DNA from: Iodidimonas sp. SYSU 1G8
GTDB lineage: Bacteria; Pseudomonadota; Alphaproteobacteria; SMXS01
NCBI RefSeq assembly: GCF_039655775.1
Contig: NZ_JBBYXJ010000001.1
Span: 1,821,501 to 1,885,500, forward strand
Direction: 5' to 3'
Length of the DNA: 64,000 nucleotides
The notes beneath the pieces were generated by a model that saw only the letters and a list, made by a program, of their open reading frames with translations, was not told where the DNA came from and ran no database searches. Positions 11,575 to 22,491 of the stretch are shown here, piece by piece. The translations under genes and the position numbers were made by a program. The first letter of the stretch is position 1, and every line of letters begins with the position of its first letter.

Positions 11575-12246
11575 CTAGGCCGCTTCGCCCGGCGTACCGG
11601 TGATCTTGATACCCGAGCCGATGATCTTGTAACGGCGGTTGATGGTGATCAGCACCGAGGTCAGCGCCTCGGCCGCCGAGGAATTCGCCAGCGGACCGGC
11701 ATGCCACCCCTTCAGGCCCGCATCTTCCACCAGCCCCACCACTACGTCGCGGGCATCGATATCGTCACCCGACACCAGCACGTCGCATTCGATGTGATGG
11801 TCGCTGTTCAGATGCTCGGCGCCGATGTTCTGGAACGCCGCGACGACCTTCACGCCTTCGCCCACGAAGGCCTGGGCGCGAACGGCGGCGGAATCCTCTT
11901 CCGGCAGCTGCACGCGGCCGACTTTCGGCGGCACCAGCGGCACGGTGGCATCGATCAGGATCTTGCCTTGCACGCCGTCCTTGATCACTTCAAGCATGGG
12001 ACGCTGGTTCGAGAACGGCACGGTGAGCGCGACGATCTCGGCTGCCGCCGCCGCCGCGCCATTGTCCATGCCGACGATGTCGCCGCCGATTTCGCCCTTC
12101 AGCGCCTCGGCCGCTTCCTGTGCCTTGCCCGCCTCGCGCGAGCCGATGATGACCTTGTGGCCGGCCTTGGCCCAGCGCCGCGCAAGGCCCCCGCCCAGGG
12201 CGCCGGTTCCGCCAATCACCGCGATGGTCCGCTTGGTCTCAGCCAT
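11575..12246 (-). CDS. npdG: NADPH-dependent F420 reductase (Fno family)
   Basis: A 223-residue Rossmann protein that moves hydride between NADPH and F420, supplying reduced F420 to partner enzymes. The NADP-binding loop AVIGGTGALGGGLARRWAKAG begins near residue 8, followed by VIIGSREAGKAQEAA; further blocks are VALTVPFSNQ, VVAAFQNIGAEHL and SSAAEALTSVLITINRRYK. ATG 12246 follows a GAAAGGGA site; the upstream extension of the frame is not family-like. It heads the npdG-cofE-cofD transcript and is divergent from the luciferase-like gene. Confidence 0.92.
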   Translation of the reverse strand: MAETKRTIAVIGGTGALGGGLARRWAKAGHKVIIGSREAGKAQEAAEALKGEIGGDIVGMDNGAAAAAAEIVALTVPFSNQRPMLEVIKDGVQGKILIDATVPLVPPKVGRVQLPEEDSAAVRAQAFVGEGVKVVAAFQNIGAEHLNSDHHIECDVLVSGDDIDARDVVVGLVEDAGLKGWHAGPLANSSAAEALTSVLITINRRYKIIGSGIKITGTPGEAA

Positions 12247-12395
12247 GTCTTTCCCTTTCGGTTCTGTCTGTTTTTTCGGTTGTGTAGCACGGTTGGCAAT
12301 ACTGGAAGCACCAAAAAAGATGTGCCAAGGTATCCGCCACTTCGGGAAACCGGCGGCCAATGACCGCCGGCCTGTCCATAAAAGGGGAGATACGG
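12247..12395. promoter_or_regulatory. Divergent promoter region of the F420 island
   Basis: These 149 bases separate npdG-cofE-cofD (minus) from the luciferase-like gene, cofC and fbiC (plus), so they must serve both F420 transcripts. The stretch is richer in A and T than its flanks and has a possible plus-strand TTGGCA. I could not find a convincing -10 at proper spacing, and no obvious inverted repeat. Confidence 0.4.
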
Positions 12396-13376
12396 ATGAA
12401 GATCGGCTTCAACATGCCGCAGCTGACGAATTTCGCCAGCCAGAAGGCGGTGCACGAGTTCGCCACCATTGCTGACAAGATGGGATACGACTCGCTCTGG
12501 GTGCAGGATCACTTCCTGTATCCGGAAAATCCGGTGCAGAGCCACCCCGTTCATCAGCACAAGCTGGGCAAGGACAAGATCGTCCAGTGGCCCGATGCCT
12601 ATTCCAGCATGCTGGCCCCACTGGAAGCGCTTGCTTATGTGGCGGGCATCACCAAGAACATCCGTCTCGGCACCTCGATTCTGGTGTTCGGTTACCATCG
12701 CCCCGTAACCCTGGCCAAGCAGGTCGCGACCATCGACGTATTGTCGAACGGGCGCTTCGATCTGGGTCTGGGACTGGGCTGGGCGACGGAGGAATTCGCC
12801 CACATGGACACGCCGTTCGGCAAGCGCGGCGAACGCTGCTCCGACTTCATCCGCGCCCTGCGCGCCGCCTGGGACGAAAACCCCACGGCCTATGACGGCC
12901 CGTTCTACAATTTCCCAAAGGGTCAGACCTCGCCCAAGCCGGTGCAGCGCGACTGGAACGGCAAGTCCGCCGTGCCCGTGCTCGGCGCGTTCCTCAACGA
13001 CCAGGGCTTCGACCGCGTCGCCGAGCTGTGCGACAAATGGCACCCGGCCGGCCATCCGCCGGAACTGGCCGCCATGCGGCTGGCCCAGATCAACAAGATC
13101 GCCGAGGAAAAGTACAAGCGCGAGCCGCTGAAGTGCGTGATGCGCGTGTTTGCCGCCCCCATGCTGCCCGGCATCAAGCAGATCGGCGAACAGCTCATGC
13201 AGCCCAACTGGGTCGGCACCGCCGACGACATGATGCCGCACCTCAAGGCCGCCAAGGCCGCCGGCATGGACGAGATCGTCATCGACTGCAGCTTCTTCCA
13301 TGAAATGCGGGGCGACGAGGACTGGATCTCCCAGCCCGAGTTCTTCCGTCCGCTCCTGGAAGAAGCCAAGAGCTGA
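12396..13376 (+). CDS. Luciferase-like, probably F420-dependent oxidoreductase
   Basis: A 326-residue TIM-barrel enzyme of the bacterial luciferase-like superfamily, whose F420-using branch performs hydride transfer to aldehydes, alcohols or other substrates. Supporting blocks are MKIGFNMPQLTNF, YDSLWVQDHFLYP, ITKNIRLGTSILVFGYHRP, and SNGRFDLGLGLGWATEEF. ATG 12396 has a perfect AAGGGGAG ribosome site; an ATG 36 bases upstream lacks one. Placement inside the F420 island strongly favours F420 over FMN. The substrate is unknown. Confidence 0.86.
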   Translation: MKIGFNMPQLTNFASQKAVHEFATIADKMGYDSLWVQDHFLYPENPVQSHPVHQHKLGKDKIVQWPDAYSSMLAPLEALAYVAGITKNIRLGTSILVFGYHRPVTLAKQVATIDVLSNGRFDLGLGLGWATEEFAHMDTPFGKRGERCSDFIRALRAAWDENPTAYDGPFYNFPKGQTSPKPVQRDWNGKSAVPVLGAFLNDQGFDRVAELCDKWHPAGHPPELAAMRLAQINKIAEEKYKREPLKCVMRVFAAPMLPGIKQIGEQLMQPNWVGTADDMMPHLKAAKAAGMDEIVIDCSFFHEMRGDEDWISQPEFFRPLLEEAKS

Positions 13377-13476
13377 CACGCACGGAGGGTTTGCCTTGTG
13401 ACGGGCCATTACCGCCCGCCACGAGGCACCATCCGGACAGACGGCGGGCGCTTTGCTGCGCCGACACGGGGAACGG

Positions 13477-14184
13477 ATGGAGGGGGCCGCTATCCGCGAG
13501 AAACCGAATATTTGGGCGCTGCTGCCTGTCAAACGCCTGAAAGGCGCCAAGCAGCGGCTGTCGCCCGTGTTGAGCGAGATGGAACGCACCGAACTGGCGC
13601 GCGCCATGCTGCTCGATGTGCTGCTCGCCCTGCGCCATGCGTGGGGCCTGGCGGGCGTGGCCGTGGTCACCGCCGATACCGAGGCCCGAAACCTGGCGCG
13701 CCAGCATGGCGCCACGCTGATCGGCGAGACCGACGGCGGCCTGAACGAGGCGCTGGACAATGCGCGCCTGACGCTGCACGCCCAAGGCGCGACCAGCGCG
13801 CTCATCGTCCATGGCGACCTCCCCCTCGCCACGGCCGAAGAGATCACCACCCTGATCGACGCCCATCCGCCGGGTCCCGCCGCCACTTTCGTGCCCGCGC
13901 GCGATGGCGGCACCAACGCCATGCTGACCACGCCCGTCGACCCGTTTCCCCTGTCCTATGGCGAGGGCAGTTTCGCCCGCCACAAGGCCGCCGCCGAAGC
14001 GGCCGGTCTGGCCACGGCCTCGCTCGTGTTGCCGGGGCTGCAGCTGGACATAGATACACCCGAGGATCTGGCCGAGTTGCTGCGCCGGGGCGCTGGCGGC
14101 CATACCATGGATTATTTACTGGCGAGCCATGTTGCCACCCGGTTACAACAGGCGGCAGGCAATTCATCGGGAAGTGAACAGTGA
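13477..14184 (+). CDS. cofC: Phosphoacid guanylyltransferase CofC (F420 biosynthesis)
   Basis: CofC/FbiD (235 residues) activates a three-carbon phosphoacid (2-phospholactate, phosphoenolpyruvate or 3-phosphoglycerate, depending on the organism) with GTP for CofD. Family blocks are WALLPVKRLKGAKQRLSPVLS near the N-terminus, VAVVTADTEA, HGDLPLATAEEI and the C-terminal LDIDTPEDLAELL. ATG 13477 has GGGGAA upstream; a TTG at 13453 is possible but less likely. The stop overlaps the fbiC GTG. Which phosphoacid is used cannot be decided by eye. Confidence 0.92.
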   Translation: MEGAAIREKPNIWALLPVKRLKGAKQRLSPVLSEMERTELARAMLLDVLLALRHAWGLAGVAVVTADTEARNLARQHGATLIGETDGGLNEALDNARLTLHAQGATSALIVHGDLPLATAEEITTLIDAHPPGPAATFVPARDGGTNAMLTTPVDPFPLSYGEGSFARHKAAAEAAGLATASLVLPGLQLDIDTPEDLAELLRRGAGGHTMDYLLASHVATRLQQAAGNSSGSEQ

Positions 14185-16607
14185 ACCGCGAGGTCGTGTC
14201 CTATCTGGAGAAGGTCGAGGCGGGCCATCGTCCGACGCGCGCCGAAGCCCTGTTGCTGGCGGCGGAAACGGATGTGCCGCGCCTGATGGCCACGGCCGCC
14301 TATCTGCGCGACCAGGGCCACCGCAACATCATCACCTTTTCCAAGAAGGTGTTCATCCCGCTCACCCATCTGTGTCGCGACGTCTGCCATTACTGCACCT
14401 TCGCCCAGCCGCCGAAGAAGGGCGAGCAGGTGTTCATGACGCCCGAACAGGTTCTGGAAATCGCCCGGCAAGGCGCGGCCATGGGCTGTAAGGAAGCGCT
14501 GTTTACTCTCGGCGACAAACCGGAGCTGCGCTACAAGGCGGCCCGCGACGCGCTCGCCGCGCTGGGGCACGAAACCACCCTCTCCTATCTGGCCGCCATG
14601 GCCCGGCTCGTGCACGAGGAAACCGGGCTGTTCCCGCACCTCAACCCGGGCCTGATGACGGACGAGGACCTTGCCATGCTGCGGCCGCTGGCGCCGTCCA
14701 TGGGCATCATGCTAGAGAGCACCGCCACCAGCCTGCTGGAAAAGGGCAAGCCGCATCACGGCAGCCCCGACAAGGAGCCGGAAGTGCGGCTCGAAGGACT
14801 GCGCCGCGCCGGACGCGCGCAGGTGCCATTCACCTCGGGCATCCTGATCGGCATTGGCGAGACCCGCGCGGAGCGGATCGAGAGCCTGCTCGCCCTGCGC
14901 GACATTCATGACGAGTTCGGCAATTTGCAGGAAGTCATCATTCAGAACTTCCGCGCCAAGCCGGGCACCCGCATGTCGGACGCGCCCGAGCCGGATCTGG
15001 ACGAGCTCCTGTGGACCCTGGCGATCACCCGCATCGTCTTCGGCCCGGAGATGAACATCCAGGTGCCGCCGAACCTCAGCCCCGGTCAGCTTCAGCCACT
15101 CGTCGCGGCCGGCATCAACGATTGGGGTGGCGTCTCGCCGCTGACGCCGGATTTCGTCAATCCGGAAGCGCCTTGGCCACACCTCGACAAGCTGGCCGCC
15201 GAAACCGCCGCGACCGGCAAGCTGCTGGTCGAGCGCCTCACCATCTATCCCGAATACGCCCTGCGGCCCGAGCGCTGGCTCGACAAGGCCATGCGCACGC
15301 CGGTCATCCAGGCCATCGATTCGGAAGGCTATCCGCGCACCGAGGAATGGTCGCCCGGCGAGGACACGCCGCCGCCGGCGAGCGACATCGCCCTGCTGAA
15401 CGCGCCCATGCCGGCGCGGATCGATCCGTGGCTGAAGTCCATCCTGGACCGGGCAAGCGCGGGCGAGCGCCTCAACGAGGCCGAGATCTCCCGGCTGTTC
15501 CTGGCGCGCGGCGACGAATTCACCGCCGTCTGCCGTACCGCCGACACGCTGCGCCGTGCGGTGAAGGGCGACACGGTGACCTATGTGGTCAACCGCAACA
15601 TCAACTACACCAATGTCTGCTACTTCAAGTGCCAGTTCTGCGCCTTCTCCAAGGGCAAGCTGACCGAGAACCTGCGCGGCAAGCCCTATGTCCTCGGCAT
15701 GGACGAGATCCAGCGCCGCACCCGGGAAGCCTGGTCGCGCGGCGCCACGGAAGTGTGCATGCAGGGCGGCATCCATCCGTCCTATACGGGCCAGACCTAT
15801 ATCGACATCACCCGTGCGGTGAAGGAAGCGGTGCCCGGCATGCACGTGCACGCCTTCTCGCCGCTGGAAGTCTGGCAGGGCGCGGAAACCCTCGGCATTT
15901 CGCTGAAGGAATTCCTGATCCGCCTGAAGGACGCCGGCCTCGGCACCTTGCCCGGCACCGCCGGTGAAGTGCTGGACGACGAGGTCCGGAACATCCTGTG
16001 CCCGGACAAGATCAATACCGCCCAGTGGTTCGAGGTGATGGAGACCGCGCACGGCCTGGGCATCCGCACGACCTCGACCATCATGTACGGCCATGTGGAT
16101 GCCCCGATCAACTGGGCGCGCCATCTGCTCGGCCTGCGCGACCTGCAGGCCAGGACCGGCGGCTTCACCGAATTCGTGCCGCTGCCCTTCGTCCACATGG
16201 AAGCCCCCATCTACCTGAAGGGCCGCGCCCGCAAGGGACCGACCTTCCGCGAGGCCGTGCTGATGCACGCCGTCGCCCGCCTCGCGCTGCACCCGCTCAT
16301 CCCCAACATCCAGACCAGCTGGGTCAAGATGGGGCCGGAAGGCGTCAAGGCCTGCCTGAACGCGGGCGTCAACGACATGGGCGGCACGCTGATGAACGAG
16401 ACCATCACACGCTCCGCCGGCGCGAACCACGGTCAGGAGATGGAGCCCTACCGGATGGAAGACATCATCCGCGGCAATGGCCGGGCGCCCGAGCAGCGTT
16501 CGACCGCCTATGGCGACGTCGCCGACGAACGCATCCGCGTGTCGTTCCAGGCGGCGCCGCTCGAGGATTTGCGCTTCACCGCCGCCAAGGAATACGAGCG
16601 CGGCTGA
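14181..16607 (+). CDS. fbiC: Fo synthase, CofG-CofH fusion (FbiC)
   Basis: A single 808-residue polypeptide carrying both radical-SAM halves of Fo synthase, which builds the deazaflavin Fo from tyrosine and the flavin precursor 5-amino-6-ribitylaminouracil. The N-terminal CofG-like half has cluster cysteines C65-C69-C72 (CRDVCHYCTF). The C-terminal CofH-like half has C480-C484-C487 (CYFKCQFCAF) and EVCMQGGIHPSYTG. The order matches the actinobacterial FbiC fusion, whereas archaea use separate proteins. It starts with GTG, overlapping the cofC stop. Both cluster motifs are intact. Confidence 0.96.
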   Translation: MNREVVSYLEKVEAGHRPTRAEALLLAAETDVPRLMATAAYLRDQGHRNIITFSKKVFIPLTHLCRDVCHYCTFAQPPKKGEQVFMTPEQVLEIARQGAAMGCKEALFTLGDKPELRYKAARDALAALGHETTLSYLAAMARLVHEETGLFPHLNPGLMTDEDLAMLRPLAPSMGIMLESTATSLLEKGKPHHGSPDKEPEVRLEGLRRAGRAQVPFTSGILIGIGETRAERIESLLALRDIHDEFGNLQEVIIQNFRAKPGTRMSDAPEPDLDELLWTLAITRIVFGPEMNIQVPPNLSPGQLQPLVAAGINDWGGVSPLTPDFVNPEAPWPHLDKLAAETAATGKLLVERLTIYPEYALRPERWLDKAMRTPVIQAIDSEGYPRTEEWSPGEDTPPPASDIALLNAPMPARIDPWLKSILDRASAGERLNEAEISRLFLARGDEFTAVCRTADTLRRAVKGDTVTYVVNRNINYTNVCYFKCQFCAFSKGKLTENLRGKPYVLGMDEIQRRTREAWSRGATEVCMQGGIHPSYTGQTYIDITRAVKEAVPGMHVHAFSPLEVWQGAETLGISLKEFLIRLKDAGLGTLPGTAGEVLDDEVRNILCPDKINTAQWFEVMETAHGLGIRTTSTIMYGHVDAPINWARHLLGLRDLQARTGGFTEFVPLPFVHMEAPIYLKGRARKGPTFREAVLMHAVARLALHPLIPNIQTSWVKMGPEGVKACLNAGVNDMGGTLMNETITRSAGANHGQEMEPYRMEDIIRGNGRAPEQRSTAYGDVADERIRVSFQAAPLEDLRFTAAKEYERG

Positions 16608-17861: not shown

Positions 17862-17980
17862 GACGATGATTCTCCCCGCATGCTGACGGAATGCCGCATG
17901 GTGTCATCATGCGACCCTCATACGGTCCAACGCCACCATCGGATTTATGCTCCCGTCTCATTCCCGCCGGAATCTGTTGC

Positions 17981-17995
17981 GATTGATTATCAATC
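17981..17995. promoter_or_regulatory. Palindromic operator candidate (Fur-like?)
   Basis: GATTGA-TTA-TCAATC is a perfect six-base inverted repeat with a three-base centre, followed by another CGTGAT half. It lies between the divergent DUF2177 gene and the PepSY-DUF2271-ApbE operon. The AT-rich TGAT/ATCA composition recalls Fur-family iron boxes, and this kind of operon is often linked to iron uptake. The regulator assignment is inference. Confidence 0.35.
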
Positions 17996-18065
17996 GTGAT
18001 TTAAGGTTCGCGAGGCGTCCGTTCGGCCGTTCTCCGGCATCACCGAGCAGGCAGTTCCATCATCC

Positions 18066-18683
18066 ATGCGAGAGACTCCCCCGCAGCGCAGGGCCTTCTG
18101 GCTGAAGCATCTGCACCGCTGGCACTGGATCAGCGCGGCATTGAGCCTGATCGGCATGCTGCTGTTCGCGGCGACGGGAATCACGCTCAATAACGCGGCC
18201 CATATCGAGGCCAGCCCCAGTGTCGTCACCCGGGAAGGCGTGTTGCCCGAGCCGCTTCGCGCGGAACTGGCCGCCGCGGGAGAGGCGCCGACCCTGCCGC
18301 TCTCCATCGAGCGCTGGCTGGCGGCGGAGCTGGGCGTGACAATCTCCGGACACGAGGCCGAGCGGTCTTCCGGCGAAGTCTACATCGCCTTGCCGCGGCC
18401 GGGCGGCGACGCCTGGCTGACCATCGATACCCAGAGCGGCGACGTGGCCTATGAACTGACCCGGCGCGGCTGGATCTCGTACCTGAACGACCTGCACAAG
18501 GGCCGCAACACTGGCATCGTCTGGAGCTGGTTCCTCGATGTCTTCGCCGGGGCCTGCGTCGTGTTCTGTCTCACGGGACTTTTCCTGCTGCAGCTTCATG
18601 CCGGCAACCGACCGGCCACATGGCCGGTGGTCGGCGCGGGTCTCGCGATCCCGCTGCTGCTGGCCCTTCTGTTCATTCACTGA
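18066..18683 (+). CDS. PepSY-associated TM helix protein
   Basis: A 205-residue membrane protein with an N-terminal helix (WISAALSLIGMLLFAATGITL), a periplasmic PepSY-like domain containing EVYIALPRPGGDAWLTIDTQSGDVAYE, and two C-terminal helices around VFAGACVVFCLTGLFLLQLH. The histidine-rich start (LKHLHRWHW) and the LNDLHKGR block resemble heme or quinone-linked PepSY-TM proteins. It is the first gene of a five-gene operon with DUF2271, DUF4198, ApbE and a flavodoxin-reductase-like gene. A role as membrane electron conduit in a flavin-based envelope pathway is inferred. Confidence 0.8.
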   Translation: MRETPPQRRAFWLKHLHRWHWISAALSLIGMLLFAATGITLNNAAHIEASPSVVTREGVLPEPLRAELAAAGEAPTLPLSIERWLAAELGVTISGHEAERSSGEVYIALPRPGGDAWLTIDTQSGDVAYELTRRGWISYLNDLHKGRNTGIVWSWFLDVFAGACVVFCLTGLFLLQLHAGNRPATWPVVGAGLAIPLLLALLFIH

Positions 18684-18696
18684 GGAGGTAAAACGC

Positions 18697-19206
18697 GTGC
18701 GCATCCTGCTTCCCGCCGCCCTGACCGGCCTGATCGCCAGCCCGGCACTGGCCGCGGACATGACCGTCAAGGTCGAGATCCCCAAACTCAGCGTGGCCGA
18801 ATACCACAAGCCCTATGTCGCCATCTGGATCGAGGGCGCCGACAAGTCCGTGACCAATCTGGCCGTCTGGTACGACGTGAAGATGAAGGACAATGAAGGC
18901 ACCAAATGGCTCAAGGACATGCGCCAGTGGTGGCGCAAGAGTGGCCGCGAACTGGCCATGCCGGTCGATGGCCTCAGCGGCGCGACCCAGGCGCCGGGCG
19001 AGCATACCATCGACTTCAGCGGCGCCGCCGGGCCGCTCGCCGCGCTCAAGCCGGGCGACTACACCCTCTACGTGGAAGCCGCCCGCGAAGTCGGTGGCCG
19101 TGAACTGCTGAAACTGCCCTTCACCTGGCCCGCCAAGGCCGCAAGCACCGAAAGCGTCACGGGCTCGTCCGAGCTCGGCGCCATCACCCTCGACCTGAAA
19201 CCATGA
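18697..19206 (+). CDS. DUF2271 periplasmic protein, probable flavinylation target
   Basis: A 169-residue exported protein with a signal peptide (LLPAALTGLIASPALAA). Mature blocks such as YVAIWIEGADKSVTNLAVWYD and WLKDMRQWWRKSGRE fit DUF2271. Residues 91-97 read DGLSGAT, matching the D-x-x-(S/T)-G-A-T motif on which ApbE covalently places FMN (T97 is the predicted site). GTG 18697 is preceded by GAGGAGGT at 18682-18689, overlapping the PepSY stop codon, so the two genes are tightly coupled. Likely role: periplasmic flavin electron carrier fed by the PepSY protein. Confidence 0.85.
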   Translation: MRILLPAALTGLIASPALAADMTVKVEIPKLSVAEYHKPYVAIWIEGADKSVTNLAVWYDVKMKDNEGTKWLKDMRQWWRKSGRELAMPVDGLSGATQAPGEHTIDFSGAAGPLAALKPGDYTLYVEAAREVGGRELLKLPFTWPAKAASTESVTGSSELGAITLDLKP

Positions 19207-19223
19207 AAAACGGGAGGCACATC

Positions 19224-20036
19224 ATGAGGACGTCCTACAAGGCGGCGGCGATCGCCCTGGCCCTGAGCCTGGCCACGCCCATGGCCGCGCACGCCCACCG
19301 GTCCTGGCTGCTGCCGTCGGCCACGGTGCTGTCCGGCGCCGACCCCTGGGTCACCGTCGACGCGGCCGTCTCGAACGACCTGTTTTATTTCGAGCACAAC
19401 GCCATGCGGCTGGACGGCCTGAAGATCATCGGGCCGGACGGCGCCGAAGTGGCCGCCGAAAACAGCGCCACCGGCAAGTACCGCAGCGTCTTCGACGTGC
19501 ATCTGACCAAGCCCGGCACGTACAAGATCGTCGTGGCGAGCGACGGGCTGATGGGCCGGTACAAGCTGAATGGCGAGGACAAGCGCTGGCGCGGCAGCGT
19601 CGACAAACTGTCGGAAATCCCCGCGGGCGCGACCGATCTGGAACTGATCCAGAACCAGCGCCGGCTCGAGACCTTCGTCACCAGCGGCGCGCCGACCGAA
19701 GACGCCCTGAAACCGACCGGCACGGGGCTCGAACTCGTCCCCGTCAGCCATCCGAACGATCTGGTCGCAGGCGAGGAAGCCAGCTTCACCTTCATGCTCG
19801 ACGGCCAGCCCGCCGCCGACCTTGAGGTCACCATCATTCCCGGCGGCATCCGCTATCGCGACGATCTGAAGGAGATGAAGGTCAGGACCGACGCCGAGGG
19901 CACGTTCAAGGTCACCTGGGACGCGCCCGGCTTCTACTGGATCAGCGCCGGCTCGCGCGGCGGGAAGGCCAGCATTCCCCAGGCGAAGAGCCGCAGCGTC
20001 AATTACGCCGCGACCGTCGAAGTCCTGGCCCCCTAA
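19224..20036 (+). CDS. DUF4198 periplasmic protein
   Basis: A 270-residue exported protein with a signal peptide (AAAIALALSLATPMAAHA) and a mature N-terminus HRSWLLPSATVLSG, typical of DUF4198 (often near nickel, cobalt or iron uptake genes). Later blocks include FDVHLTKPGTYKIVVASDG and FKVTWDAPGFYWISA, suggesting tandem immunoglobulin-like beta domains. ATG 19224 follows GGGAGG (19211-19216); an ATG at 19203 overlaps the previous stop but has a weaker site. Function unknown; a metal- or ligand-binding role in the same envelope module is plausible. Confidence 0.82.
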   Translation: MRTSYKAAAIALALSLATPMAAHAHRSWLLPSATVLSGADPWVTVDAAVSNDLFYFEHNAMRLDGLKIIGPDGAEVAAENSATGKYRSVFDVHLTKPGTYKIVVASDGLMGRYKLNGEDKRWRGSVDKLSEIPAGATDLELIQNQRRLETFVTSGAPTEDALKPTGTGLELVPVSHPNDLVAGEEASFTFMLDGQPAADLEVTIIPGGIRYRDDLKEMKVRTDAEGTFKVTWDAPGFYWISAGSRGGKASIPQAKSRSVNYAATVEVLAP

Positions 20037-20053
20037 CCCTCGCCCCACGATCC

Positions 20054-21046
20054 ATGACCCGACAGGTTCTCGTTCCCCTGGAGCTCTCGCCCGTCCAGCC
20101 GCCCCAAGGCGCGGTGCGGACGTTGCGTGGCCTGACCATGGGCACGAGCTGGACGGTCAGGATCGTCGCCTCGGATGCCGCGCCGATCGACCGGCTCGGC
20201 GCGGGCATCCAGCGGCAGCTTGACCGGGTCGTCGACCAGATGAGCACGTGGGAGCCGGGCTCGGCTCTCAGCCGCTTTAACGCCACCGTCGGCGAGTGGC
20301 GCACGCTGCCCTTCGAGCTGTTCACCGTGCTCGATCACGCGCTTGCGCTCGCGGAAGAGAGCGGCGGCGCCTACGATCCGACAACGGGACCGCTGGTCAA
20401 TCTGTGGGGTTTCGGCCCGGAAGGCAGCCGCCGCGACCCACCGGACCGGCAGGCGATTTTGACGACGCGCGCCCGCATCGGCTGGAACCGGATCGAACTC
20501 GACCGGGCCACCGGCCGTGCCCGTCAGCCGGGCGGCTGCTATGTGGACCTCTCCGGCATCGCCAAGGGCTATGCCGTCGATCTGGTCGGCGACTGGCTGC
20601 GCGAGCAGGGCATCAGCGATTTCCTCGTCGAGGTCGGCGGCGAACTCCTCGGCGCGGGCGTCAAGCCAAACGGCCAACCCTGGTGGGTGGCGCTGGAGGC
20701 ACCGCCCGGCGCCGGGGCCATCCCGGAAAGCTTGGTCGCGCTCCACGGCCTGTCGGCTGCCACGTCGGGCGACTACCGCAAATTCTTTGAAAGCGATGGC
20801 CTGCGCTTCTCGCACACCCTCGACCCCCGGACCGGCCATCCGGTGGCGAACGGTCTGGCCAGCGTGACCGTGCTCCACCCGCGCTGCATGCTGGCCGACG
20901 CCATGGCGACGGCTCTGACCGTCATGGGTCCGCGGGAAGGTTTCGACTTCGCCCGGGCCCGCGGCATCGCGGCCCGCTTCCTCGTCCGTACCGCCGACAA
21001 CTTTCACCAGCGGATGACACCCGCGCTGGCGGCCATGCTCGATTGA
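20054..21046 (+). CDS. apbE: FAD:protein FMN transferase ApbE
   Basis: ApbE (330 residues) attaches FMN from FAD to threonine in target proteins. Family blocks are LTMGTSWTVRIV, GGAYDPTTGPLVNLWGFG, YVDLSGIAKGYAVDLV, FLVEVGGELLGAG, HTLDPRTGHPVANG and the metal-binding ADAMATALTVMG. No signal peptide or lipobox is evident at the annotated start, unlike many periplasmic ApbE proteins, so location is uncertain. The probable substrate is the DUF2271 protein two genes upstream. The stop overlaps the next ATG by one base (TGATG). Confidence 0.94.
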   Translation: MTRQVLVPLELSPVQPPQGAVRTLRGLTMGTSWTVRIVASDAAPIDRLGAGIQRQLDRVVDQMSTWEPGSALSRFNATVGEWRTLPFELFTVLDHALALAEESGGAYDPTTGPLVNLWGFGPEGSRRDPPDRQAILTTRARIGWNRIELDRATGRARQPGGCYVDLSGIAKGYAVDLVGDWLREQGISDFLVEVGGELLGAGVKPNGQPWWVALEAPPGAGAIPESLVALHGLSAATSGDYRKFFESDGLRFSHTLDPRTGHPVANGLASVTVLHPRCMLADAMATALTVMGPREGFDFARARGIAARFLVRTADNFHQRMTPALAAMLD

Positions 21047-22491
21047 TGATGAGCCGTATCGCGCTTCCCGCCAGTACCCTGCTTCTGGCCGCCTCTCTTG
21101 CGATCCTCGTCTGGATGGCATGTCTGCAGGCATCGCCCGACAATGTCCATGCGGCCCTGCTCGTCGCCGTCGCCTATGCCGCGTTCTGCGCCGTGACGTT
21201 GCTGCGGCATCGGCGGCGGATCGCCGGCCGGGCCTTCATCGCCGCGCCGGCGGACAGCGCCGGCTCCCTGCTGATCGCCCATGCCAGCCAGACGGGACAA
21301 GCCGAGGAGTTGGCCCGCCGCACCGCCGAGGCGCTGCGGGACGAGGGCATGCCCGTGCGCGTCGACCCTCTCGGCCGCGTCGAGGCCGCCGGGCTCGAAA
21401 TCGCGAAGAGGGTCCTGTTCGTCGTCAGCACCACCGGCGAGGGTGATGCCCCCGACAGCGCCGCGCGGTTCACCCGCCAAGTCCTGGGCCGCGAGGCGGA
21501 CCTGCGGGAGCTGCGCTATGGCCTGCTGTCCCTGGGCGACCGGAGCTACAACCATTTCTGCGGCTTCGGCAGGAGCCTTGAGGCGTGGCTGCGCCAGCAG
21601 GGCGCGACGCCGCTGTTCGACACGGTGGAAGTGGACAACGGAGATGCCGGCGCGCTGCGACACTGGCAGTATCACATGGGTCTGCTCAGCGGCAGCAGTC
21701 GCATGAAGGACTGGCAACCGGCGCATTATGGACGCTGGCGCCTCGCGGAACGCCGCCTGCTCAACCCGGGAAGCCTGGGCGGCGAGGTCTTTCACGTCGC
21801 GCTGGAGCCGCTTGATGGTCAACCCTCATGGGCGGCGGGCGACATCGCCGAAATCGGCCCGCGCGATCCTCTCGACCCCGAAGCACCGCAACCCCACAGG
21901 GAATATTCCATCGCCTCGCTGCCTACCGATGGCCGCGTCGAACTGCTGGTCCGGCGCATGGACCATCCGGACGGTAGGCCCGGCCTCGGCTCCGGCTGGC
22001 TGACCCGCCATGCCCCGCTTGGCAGCGCCATAGACATGCGCATCCGGACAAACCGGTCTTTCCATGCGCCGCCGGAGGATGTCCCGCTGATCCTGATCGG
22101 CAATGGCACCGGTCTTGCCGGTCTTCGTTCGCACCTCAAGGCGCGGCTCGCTGCGGGACGGCGGCGGAACTGGCTCATCTTCGGCGAACGCTCGCGCGCC
22201 CATGATTTCTTTTATGAACACGAAATCGAGTCCTGGCGGTCGCGAGGCTGGCTCGACCGGCTGGATCTCGCTTTCTCCCGCGATCAACCGGAGCGTCTTT
22301 ACGTCCAGCATCGCCTGGCCGAGGCGGCGGACCAGTTGCGGCGCTGGGTGGACGAAGGCGCCGCGATTTATGTGTGCGGCAGCCTGATCGGGATGGCCTC
22401 GGGCGTCGCCGCCGTTCTGGAAGAAACGCTTGGCCAGGACGTTCTCGACACCCTCGCCGCCGATGGGCGCTACCGGCGCGACGTCTACTGA
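21046..22491 (+). CDS. Membrane-anchored flavodoxin/NADPH-reductase (sulfite reductase alpha-like)
   Basis: A 481-residue diflavin reductase. Two N-terminal hydrophobic segments (residues 5-50) anchor it. A flavodoxin FMN domain follows (LLIAHASQTGQAEELARRTA, VVSTTGEGDAPDSAARF, LGDRSYNHFCGFG), then a ferredoxin-reductase-type module with FAD motif REYSIASLP, the NADPH motif IGNGTGLAGLRSHL and a terminal YVCGSLIGMASGV. It probably passes NADPH electrons via FAD and FMN into the PepSY/DUF2271 system. ATG 21046 overlaps the apbE TGA. Confidence 0.88.
   Translation: MMSRIALPASTLLLAASLAILVWMACLQASPDNVHAALLVAVAYAAFCAVTLLRHRRRIAGRAFIAAPADSAGSLLIAHASQTGQAEELARRTAEALRDEGMPVRVDPLGRVEAAGLEIAKRVLFVVSTTGEGDAPDSAARFTRQVLGREADLRELRYGLLSLGDRSYNHFCGFGRSLEAWLRQQGATPLFDTVEVDNGDAGALRHWQYHMGLLSGSSRMKDWQPAHYGRWRLAERRLLNPGSLGGEVFHVALEPLDGQPSWAAGDIAEIGPRDPLDPEAPQPHREYSIASLPTDGRVELLVRRMDHPDGRPGLGSGWLTRHAPLGSAIDMRIRTNRSFHAPPEDVPLILIGNGTGLAGLRSHLKARLAAGRRRNWLIFGERSRAHDFFYEHEIESWRSRGWLDRLDLAFSRDQPERLYVQHRLAEAADQLRRWVDEGAAIYVCGSLIGMASGVAAVLEETLGQDVLDTLAADGRYRRDVY

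Follow-up and report, generated by a model that had tools for sequence, protein, structure and literature searches.

PepSY-like flavinylation systems were described by Meheust et al. 2021 (PMC8238504), in whose survey PepSY-like gene clusters occurred with ApbE, the flavin adenine dinucleotide (FAD):protein flavin mononucleotide (FMN) transferase, with DUF2271 (2833 clusters) and with DUF4198 (1500 clusters). In the same work the DUF2271 protein of A. ursilacus was flavinylated with its cognate ApbE, and a threonine-to-alanine change abolished the modification. In Caulobacter crescentus, the operon CC3059-63 (CCNA_03155-03159) is strongly up-regulated when iron is limiting and when fur is mutated, its Fur sites were validated, and insertions in it lower fitness with ethylenediaminetetraacetic acid (EDTA). 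Here we analysed a 64,000-nucleotide stretch of Iodidimonas sp. SYSU 1G8 (contig NZ_JBBYXJ010000001.1), hereafter the window, in which positions 18066-22491 hold five same-strand open reading frames whose Pfam matches bear out the families assigned in an earlier note on this DNA: a PepSY membrane protein, DUF2271, DUF4198, ApbE and a diflavin reductase. Caulobacter has the same five products in the same order, and no difference between the two operons is known. The PepSY protein, DUF2271, ApbE and DUF4198 are common to this locus and the systems of PMC8238504, and so are the defining features of the class, namely PF16357 next to DUF2271 and ApbE and an [S/T]GA[S/T] motif in DUF2271. The locus differs in that the NADPH (reduced nicotinamide adenine dinucleotide phosphate) donor domain, fused to PepSY there, is a separate diflavin protein here. 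A novel operon type was therefore rejected, the kind being already published; this locus is one unexceptional example of a widespread, published, iron-linked system (PMC11870441, PMC3751524, PMC7190382, PMC11334425 and PMC8082313 were also drawn on). Of more interest is a conflict of topology, on which the earlier note did not remark: judged from the sequences, a flavoprotein that is exported seems, across the family, to owe its flavin to a transferase located in the cytosol.

We consider it reasonably probable that the operon encodes a PepSY-like ferric reductase that is driven by NADPH and controlled by Fur, and in which FMN is attached to DUF2271 by the operon's own cytosolic ApbE before export by the general secretory (Sec) pathway. 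For this reading the gene identities, the motif, the conservation of acceptor and histidines, the Fur-like operator and the signal-less, sole ApbE were obtained here from sequence, and DUF2271 flavinylation, Fur/iron regulation and EDTA fitness come from homologues studied by others. DUF2271 (18697..19206, + strand, Pfam E 8.8e-50), the predicted exported flavin carrier, is read from GTG 18697, which an AGGAGG-like ribosome site precedes, and its Sec-type signal contains no RR pair. Counted from this GTG, DGLSGAT occupies residues 91-97, as the earlier note had it, with T97 as the acceptor, and among the five operon proteins [ST]GA[ST] occurs in DUF2271 only. ApbE (20054..21046, + strand, Pfam E 4.8e-84), the FAD:protein FMN transferase, showed neither a signal peptide nor a lipidation site nor any hydrophobic stretch ahead of its domain by a home-made rule. 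Its structural model (mean predicted local distance difference test score, pLDDT, 93.3) resembles the ApbE of V. cholerae across model residues 18-329 (Z 39.6), and the first ten residues are fairly ordered (mean pLDDT 84) with a short strand at 4-6. The genome (G000) has one DUF2271 match, and this ApbE is its sole ApbE match; FMN_bind and NqrB/RnfD, the other known client families looked for, gave no match in it, which favours DUF2271 as the client.

To see how far the pattern extends we sampled 397 Pseudomonadota genomes, of which 75 had DUF2271 above the Pfam cut-off, in 79 places altogether; for 78 of these places the flanking 5 kb in both directions (shorter at contig ends) was inspected, the window itself being the 79th. 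An unfused same-strand ApbE lies nearby at 49 places, ApbE is fused to DUF2271 at 6, and no ApbE was found nearby at 24. The signal-peptide rule was written after a hydrophobicity score alone had failed to separate some ApbEs from weak DUF2271 signals, and its controls were 30 ApbEs chosen as the best-scoring of the survey, with no random draw, and 15 separate ApbEs. It predicted a signal in 29/30 and 14/15 of these controls (2/45 without), and misses 6/73 DUF2271 proteins, one ApbE in each control set and 2/6 fusions. The linked ApbEs flagged as signal-bearing are L113, L123 and L148, with a lipobox in L123 only. The missing signal is not an annotation error, because six-frame translations were used. 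In a further set of 38 named loci, a signal was predicted in 0/36 ApbEs and in 35/38 DUF2271 proteins.

These counts bear on whether ApbE is periplasmic after all, reaching the envelope by an unrecognised export route, either carried along with DUF2271 or through a signal that the rule missed. Among characterised ApbEs most are lipoproteins of the periplasm, and that of Salmonella has to be in this compartment if it is to support the synthesis of thiamine (PMC12052999); the lipobox of the linked L123 points the same way. On the other side, 46 of the 49 linked ApbEs lack a predicted signal, versus one present in 67/73 unfused DUF2271 and 57/57 DUF4198 proteins tested at the survey loci, and in the window the reading frame of ApbE contains no ATG, GTG or TTG upstream of 20054. 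We therefore regard a periplasmic ApbE as unlikely, though a serious contender. Flavinylation in the cytosol before export is instead suggested, because a signal-less sole ApbE stands beside an exported DUF2271 and belongs to a largely signal-less clade, and flavinylation in the envelope becomes doubtful for an enzyme without an export signal.

The same pattern was found genome by genome and in the phylogeny. In 33 of the 49 genomes there is no ApbE match besides the adjacent one, and 31 of those 33 adjacent ApbEs have no predicted signal. Among the 23 genomes of the class without an adjacent ApbE, 15 ApbEs came from 13 genomes, with a signal predicted in 14; the ApbEs of eight further genomes were among the 30 top-scoring, and all eight had a predicted signal; G133 and G189 were left out of this comparison. 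In a tree of 100 ApbEs (49 linked, 30 top-scoring, 15 separate, 6 from fusions), the 49 linked sequences fall on one side of a branch with support 100/93, recovered in 100% of 200 bootstrap trees, although the bootstrap had not fully settled; L079, in the row next to the linked clade, has a predicted signal. From these sequences the lack of a signal in the linked ApbEs looks old and retained. For Brucella ovis, PMC9045290 gives a Pfam ApbE domain at residues 18-296 for a protein whose locus number lies next to a PepSY and flavodoxin cluster; a domain beginning at residue 18 leaves little room for a signal, and DUF2271 is unnamed in the portions of that paper drawn on. Signal-less ApbE is known from Klebsiella, and intracellular ApbEs from eukaryotes; our search of the open-licence PubMed Central (PMC) literature found no description of one for DUF2271 systems. 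In the soluble fumarate reductase system of Klebsiella, ApbE is signal-less as it is here, but its client is cytosolic there and predicted to be exported here (PMC12052999).

The Klebsiella case also raises the possibility that the client of the cytosolic ApbE is some other protein of the cytosol, or that the enzyme hydrolyses FAD for FMN, and that DUF2271 is no substrate. A signal-less ApbE does flavinylate the cytosolic fumarate reductase, and FAD hydrolysis is shown by some ApbEs (both PMC12052999). However, ApbE adjoins DUF2271 at 49/79 places and is fused to it at 6 more, the DUF2271 acceptor is invariant and the other four operon proteins contain no [ST]GA[ST], and a homologous ApbE-DUF2271 pair reacts in E. 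coli (PMC8238504), so that we hold this alternative to be quite improbable. ApbE requires only a seven-residue motif, and so could act on an unfolded precursor; in the proposed route, the operon's ApbE would attach FMN most likely in the cytosol, on the DUF2271 precursor and ahead of Sec export, and Sec would then carry the chain with FMN attached.

Several points weigh against flavinylation by a cytosolic ApbE before export. The signal rule was set after the sequences had been inspected. The linked ApbE with a lipobox (L123) breaks the pattern, and the ApbE-DUF2271 fusions appear exported (4/6 by the rule, the other 2 by eye), so ApbE action outside is also possible in the family. Meheust et al. 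call the A. ursilacus apbE 'signal peptide-truncated' (PMC8238504), so a signal may be present on one or more of the ApbEs linked to DUF2271. Together these last three show that a signal-less ApbE is not a universal rule. The GA core of the motif is gone in 17/49 DUF2271 proteins next to ApbE; the search of the genome for client families did not extend to DUF3570, another known ApbE client; and no test of Sec passage by a flavin-bearing chain was found in the open-licence PMC literature. With these in the balance we still lean, if slightly, to the view that DUF2271 carriers are flavinylated by a dedicated, anciently signal-less cytosolic ApbE clade and then exported by Sec with FMN attached, and that where no ApbE adjoins, a signal-bearing ApbE elsewhere acts after export. 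If so, ApbE would not, in the DUF2271 class, act on its exported clients outside the membrane, contrary to the current view; the question of how FAD reaches ApbE would fall away for that class, no periplasmic FAD being needed; Sec would have to pass a flavin-bearing chain; and one and the same flavoprotein would be made by two routes of opposite topology. Genome surveys that demand an ApbE signal peptide would undercount such genomes; in PMC8238504 the extracytosolic counts left out genes for which neither a signal nor a lipidation site was predicted, and the ApbE here is signal-less.

Two features of the linked ApbE N-termini were seen in passing. In many of the loci L010-L031 (Sphingopyxis and relatives) the conserved N-terminus of ApbE has no ATG, GTG or TTG ahead of it, and translation appears to begin at a CTG that shares bases with the stop codon of DUF4198 (CTGA). 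Many linked ApbEs (L000, L002, L010-L032, L035 and others) carry an N-terminal R-[VI]-L-[IV]-P where other ApbEs have the lipoprotein signal.

The acceptor itself was examined across all 79 DUF2271 proteins. The DUF2271 profile missed 14/79 places, and all 79 were then placed by position; acceptor loss in the many orthologues left blank by the pattern search was rejected, since the alignment revealed variants such as TGPT and SSAT with the acceptor kept. The final motif position is T or S in 79/79, including 49/49 next to an unfused ApbE, so the conservation beside apbE that the earlier note had made a condition of its reading holds for the acceptor residue; the full [ST]GA[ST] is less fixed, being found in 32/49 of those proteins, in 13/24 without an adjacent ApbE and in 0/6 fusions. 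Variants include TGPT, SGPT, SSAT and TSAT, and the same-genus relative reads DGITGPT. In Klebsiella fumarate reductase, replacing the linking threonine stopped flavinylation, and G-to-A and A-to-V changes only reduced it, so some drift of the core may be tolerable. Export of DUF2271 by the twin-arginine translocation (Tat) pathway was set aside, an RR pair near the start being present in 6/73 and [ST]RRx[FLVIM] in 0/73. Searched against PDB sequences, DUF2271 yielded no relative.

Side observations concern variant members of the family. The fusions (L157, L159, L160 and L162-L164) keep the acceptor T in 6/6 with the [ST]GA[ST] core in none, as though a tethered ApbE needed less of the motif. 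L165-L182 except L180 form a distant DUF2271 subfamily whose motif ends in S (TGAS or SGAS); the ApbEs adjoining these DUF2271 proteins are likewise without predicted signals, and in L165, L167 and L173 the gene order is DUF2271, reductase, ApbE.

How electrons would reach DUF2271 can be read from the flanking genes. The diflavin reductase (21046..22491, + strand; Flavodoxin_1 E 5.2e-25, NAD_binding_1 E 5.2e-10) has a hydrophobic N-terminus followed by a basic stretch, a flavodoxin domain and an NADP-binding domain; it resembles CysJ and P450 reductases, the closest PDB sequences being the sulfite reductase flavoprotein alpha and P450 reductases, and its N-terminus fits flavin domains held in the cytosol. 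An ATG start at 21046 or 21049 is more likely than TTG 21043. The PepSY_TM_like_2 (PF16357) membrane protein (18066..18683, + strand, Pfam E 3.8e-78), a probable two-heme electron conduit, retains H20 and H144 in 55/55 aligned relatives, and H178 in 34/35 and H205 in 35/35 of those aligned with an adjacent ApbE. H205 is its C-terminal residue (window 18683), a C-terminal His occurs in 45/55 aligned and lies next to last in L127, and from this conservation it is likely a heme ligand. PepSY proteins have the N-terminus inside and three membrane helices (PMC8238504), a topology that puts H20 and H178 at the cytosolic face and H144 and H205 at the periplasmic face. FoxB, reported to have two heme sites with two histidines each, offers a precedent, and the four conserved histidines here, known from sequence, lie in positions that would suit two such sites; we infer the pairing of the four for two hemes. 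Against PDB sequences the PepSY protein gave only weak matches (E 0.29 and 0.89).

In the proposed path, electrons would thus run from NADPH to the FAD and FMN of the membrane-anchored reductase, on to two bis-histidine b hemes of PepSY, H20/H178 on the cytosol side and H144/H205 on the periplasm side, and from these to the FMN on T97 of periplasmic DUF2271; the direction of flow, like the pairing, is our interpretation. A flavinylated carrier fed by PepSY, as the earlier note envisaged, agrees with PMC8238504 and with the conserved features here. The FMN of DUF2271 would finally reduce ferric iron, perhaps chelated or kept near the metal-binding DUF4198.

Ferric iron is the likely terminal acceptor by inference. 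The earlier note had left the acceptor open, and it is not fully so, because in Caulobacter the homologous operon is repressed by Fur and, when disrupted, leaves the cells less fit with EDTA. Upstream of the present operon lies the candidate Fur-like operator palindrome CGATTGATTATCAATCG (17980..17996, no strand assigned), found as a matrix match. The matrix was built from sites upstream of relatives' operons (30 of 35 distinct sites kept, the window and the same-genus locus excluded); these sites were first chosen by likeness to the classic consensus, so the matrix depends on that choice. The two highest-scoring matches of the 64 kb window lie at the palindrome, first 17979-17994 (-) and second 17976-17991 (+), with scores of 18.4 and 16.1, next best 14.7; 0/1000 shuffles of the upstream region reach the palindrome's score, and in the same-genus relative the best match falls at the corresponding place. 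The classic 19-base Fur consensus matches best upstream at 13/19 at -237, elsewhere than at the palindrome. From these sequence matches the palindrome is a candidate Fur operator of the operon. Across the genome, three matches are to the Fur family, one is to FeoB and 55 are to TonB receptors.

The remaining protein, DUF4198 (19203..20036, + strand, Pfam E 3.7e-61), a predicted exported beta-sandwich protein and probable metal binder, raises the question of a metal other than iron. With cleavage judged by eye (AHA|HRSW), its predicted mature first residue is His32, and mature H1, H34 and H152 are invariant in 22/22 aligned. Its model (pLDDT 91.1) matches Zcp best (9mhi-9mhn; Foldseek template-modelling score, TM, by query 0.68-0.72) and also IsDUF4198 (9GCB; 0.57), with which it shares the fold and the mature N-terminal His. 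IsDUF4198 binds nickel through that His with a dissociation constant of 18 nM (PMC12537917), and the Zcp structures were solved with zinc, copper and cobalt, so that the metal handled by the operon might be one of these four, bound by DUF4198. Yet the second nickel ligand of IsDUF4198, His18, is W here by counting on the sequence, with H34 and H152 invariant, and the metal site may accordingly be differently built; moreover the homologous Caulobacter operon is under Fur/iron regulation and a Fur-like operator precedes this one. We judge another metal improbable and keep to ferric iron. The N-terminal metal-binding His of DUF4198 was rejected as a new finding, being already published (PMC12537917), and a search of the open-licence PMC literature for a paper treating Zcp together with DUF4198 found none.

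The spacing of the five genes makes their coupling plausible, from sequence, as the earlier note had supposed. Genes 1 and 2 are separated by 13 bases, and genes 2 and 3 overlap by 4 bases, or have a short gap if DUF4198 starts at the alternative ATG 19224, where the ribosome site is better; 17 bases lie between DUF4198 and ApbE, and ApbE and the reductase touch. Among the 38 named loci, DUF2271 relatives taken from a scan of named genome contigs, the retrieved flanking DNA contained PepSY in 38/38, ApbE in 36/38, DUF4198 in 34/38 and the reductase in 12/38, which argues against chance association. The complete five-gene order occurs at 25 of the 79 survey places, the window's operon counted. 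Within the order, only the window's genome and one other of 10 genomes have DUF2271 or ApbE, so the operon is sporadic in the lineage.

Elsewhere in the window, 11575-16607 carries coenzyme F420 genes in an apparent Pseudomonadota genome: an NADPH-dependent F420 reductase (11575-12360, - strand), an F420-type LLM oxidoreductase (12360-13376), cofC (13453-14184) and a cofGH fusion (14181-16607).

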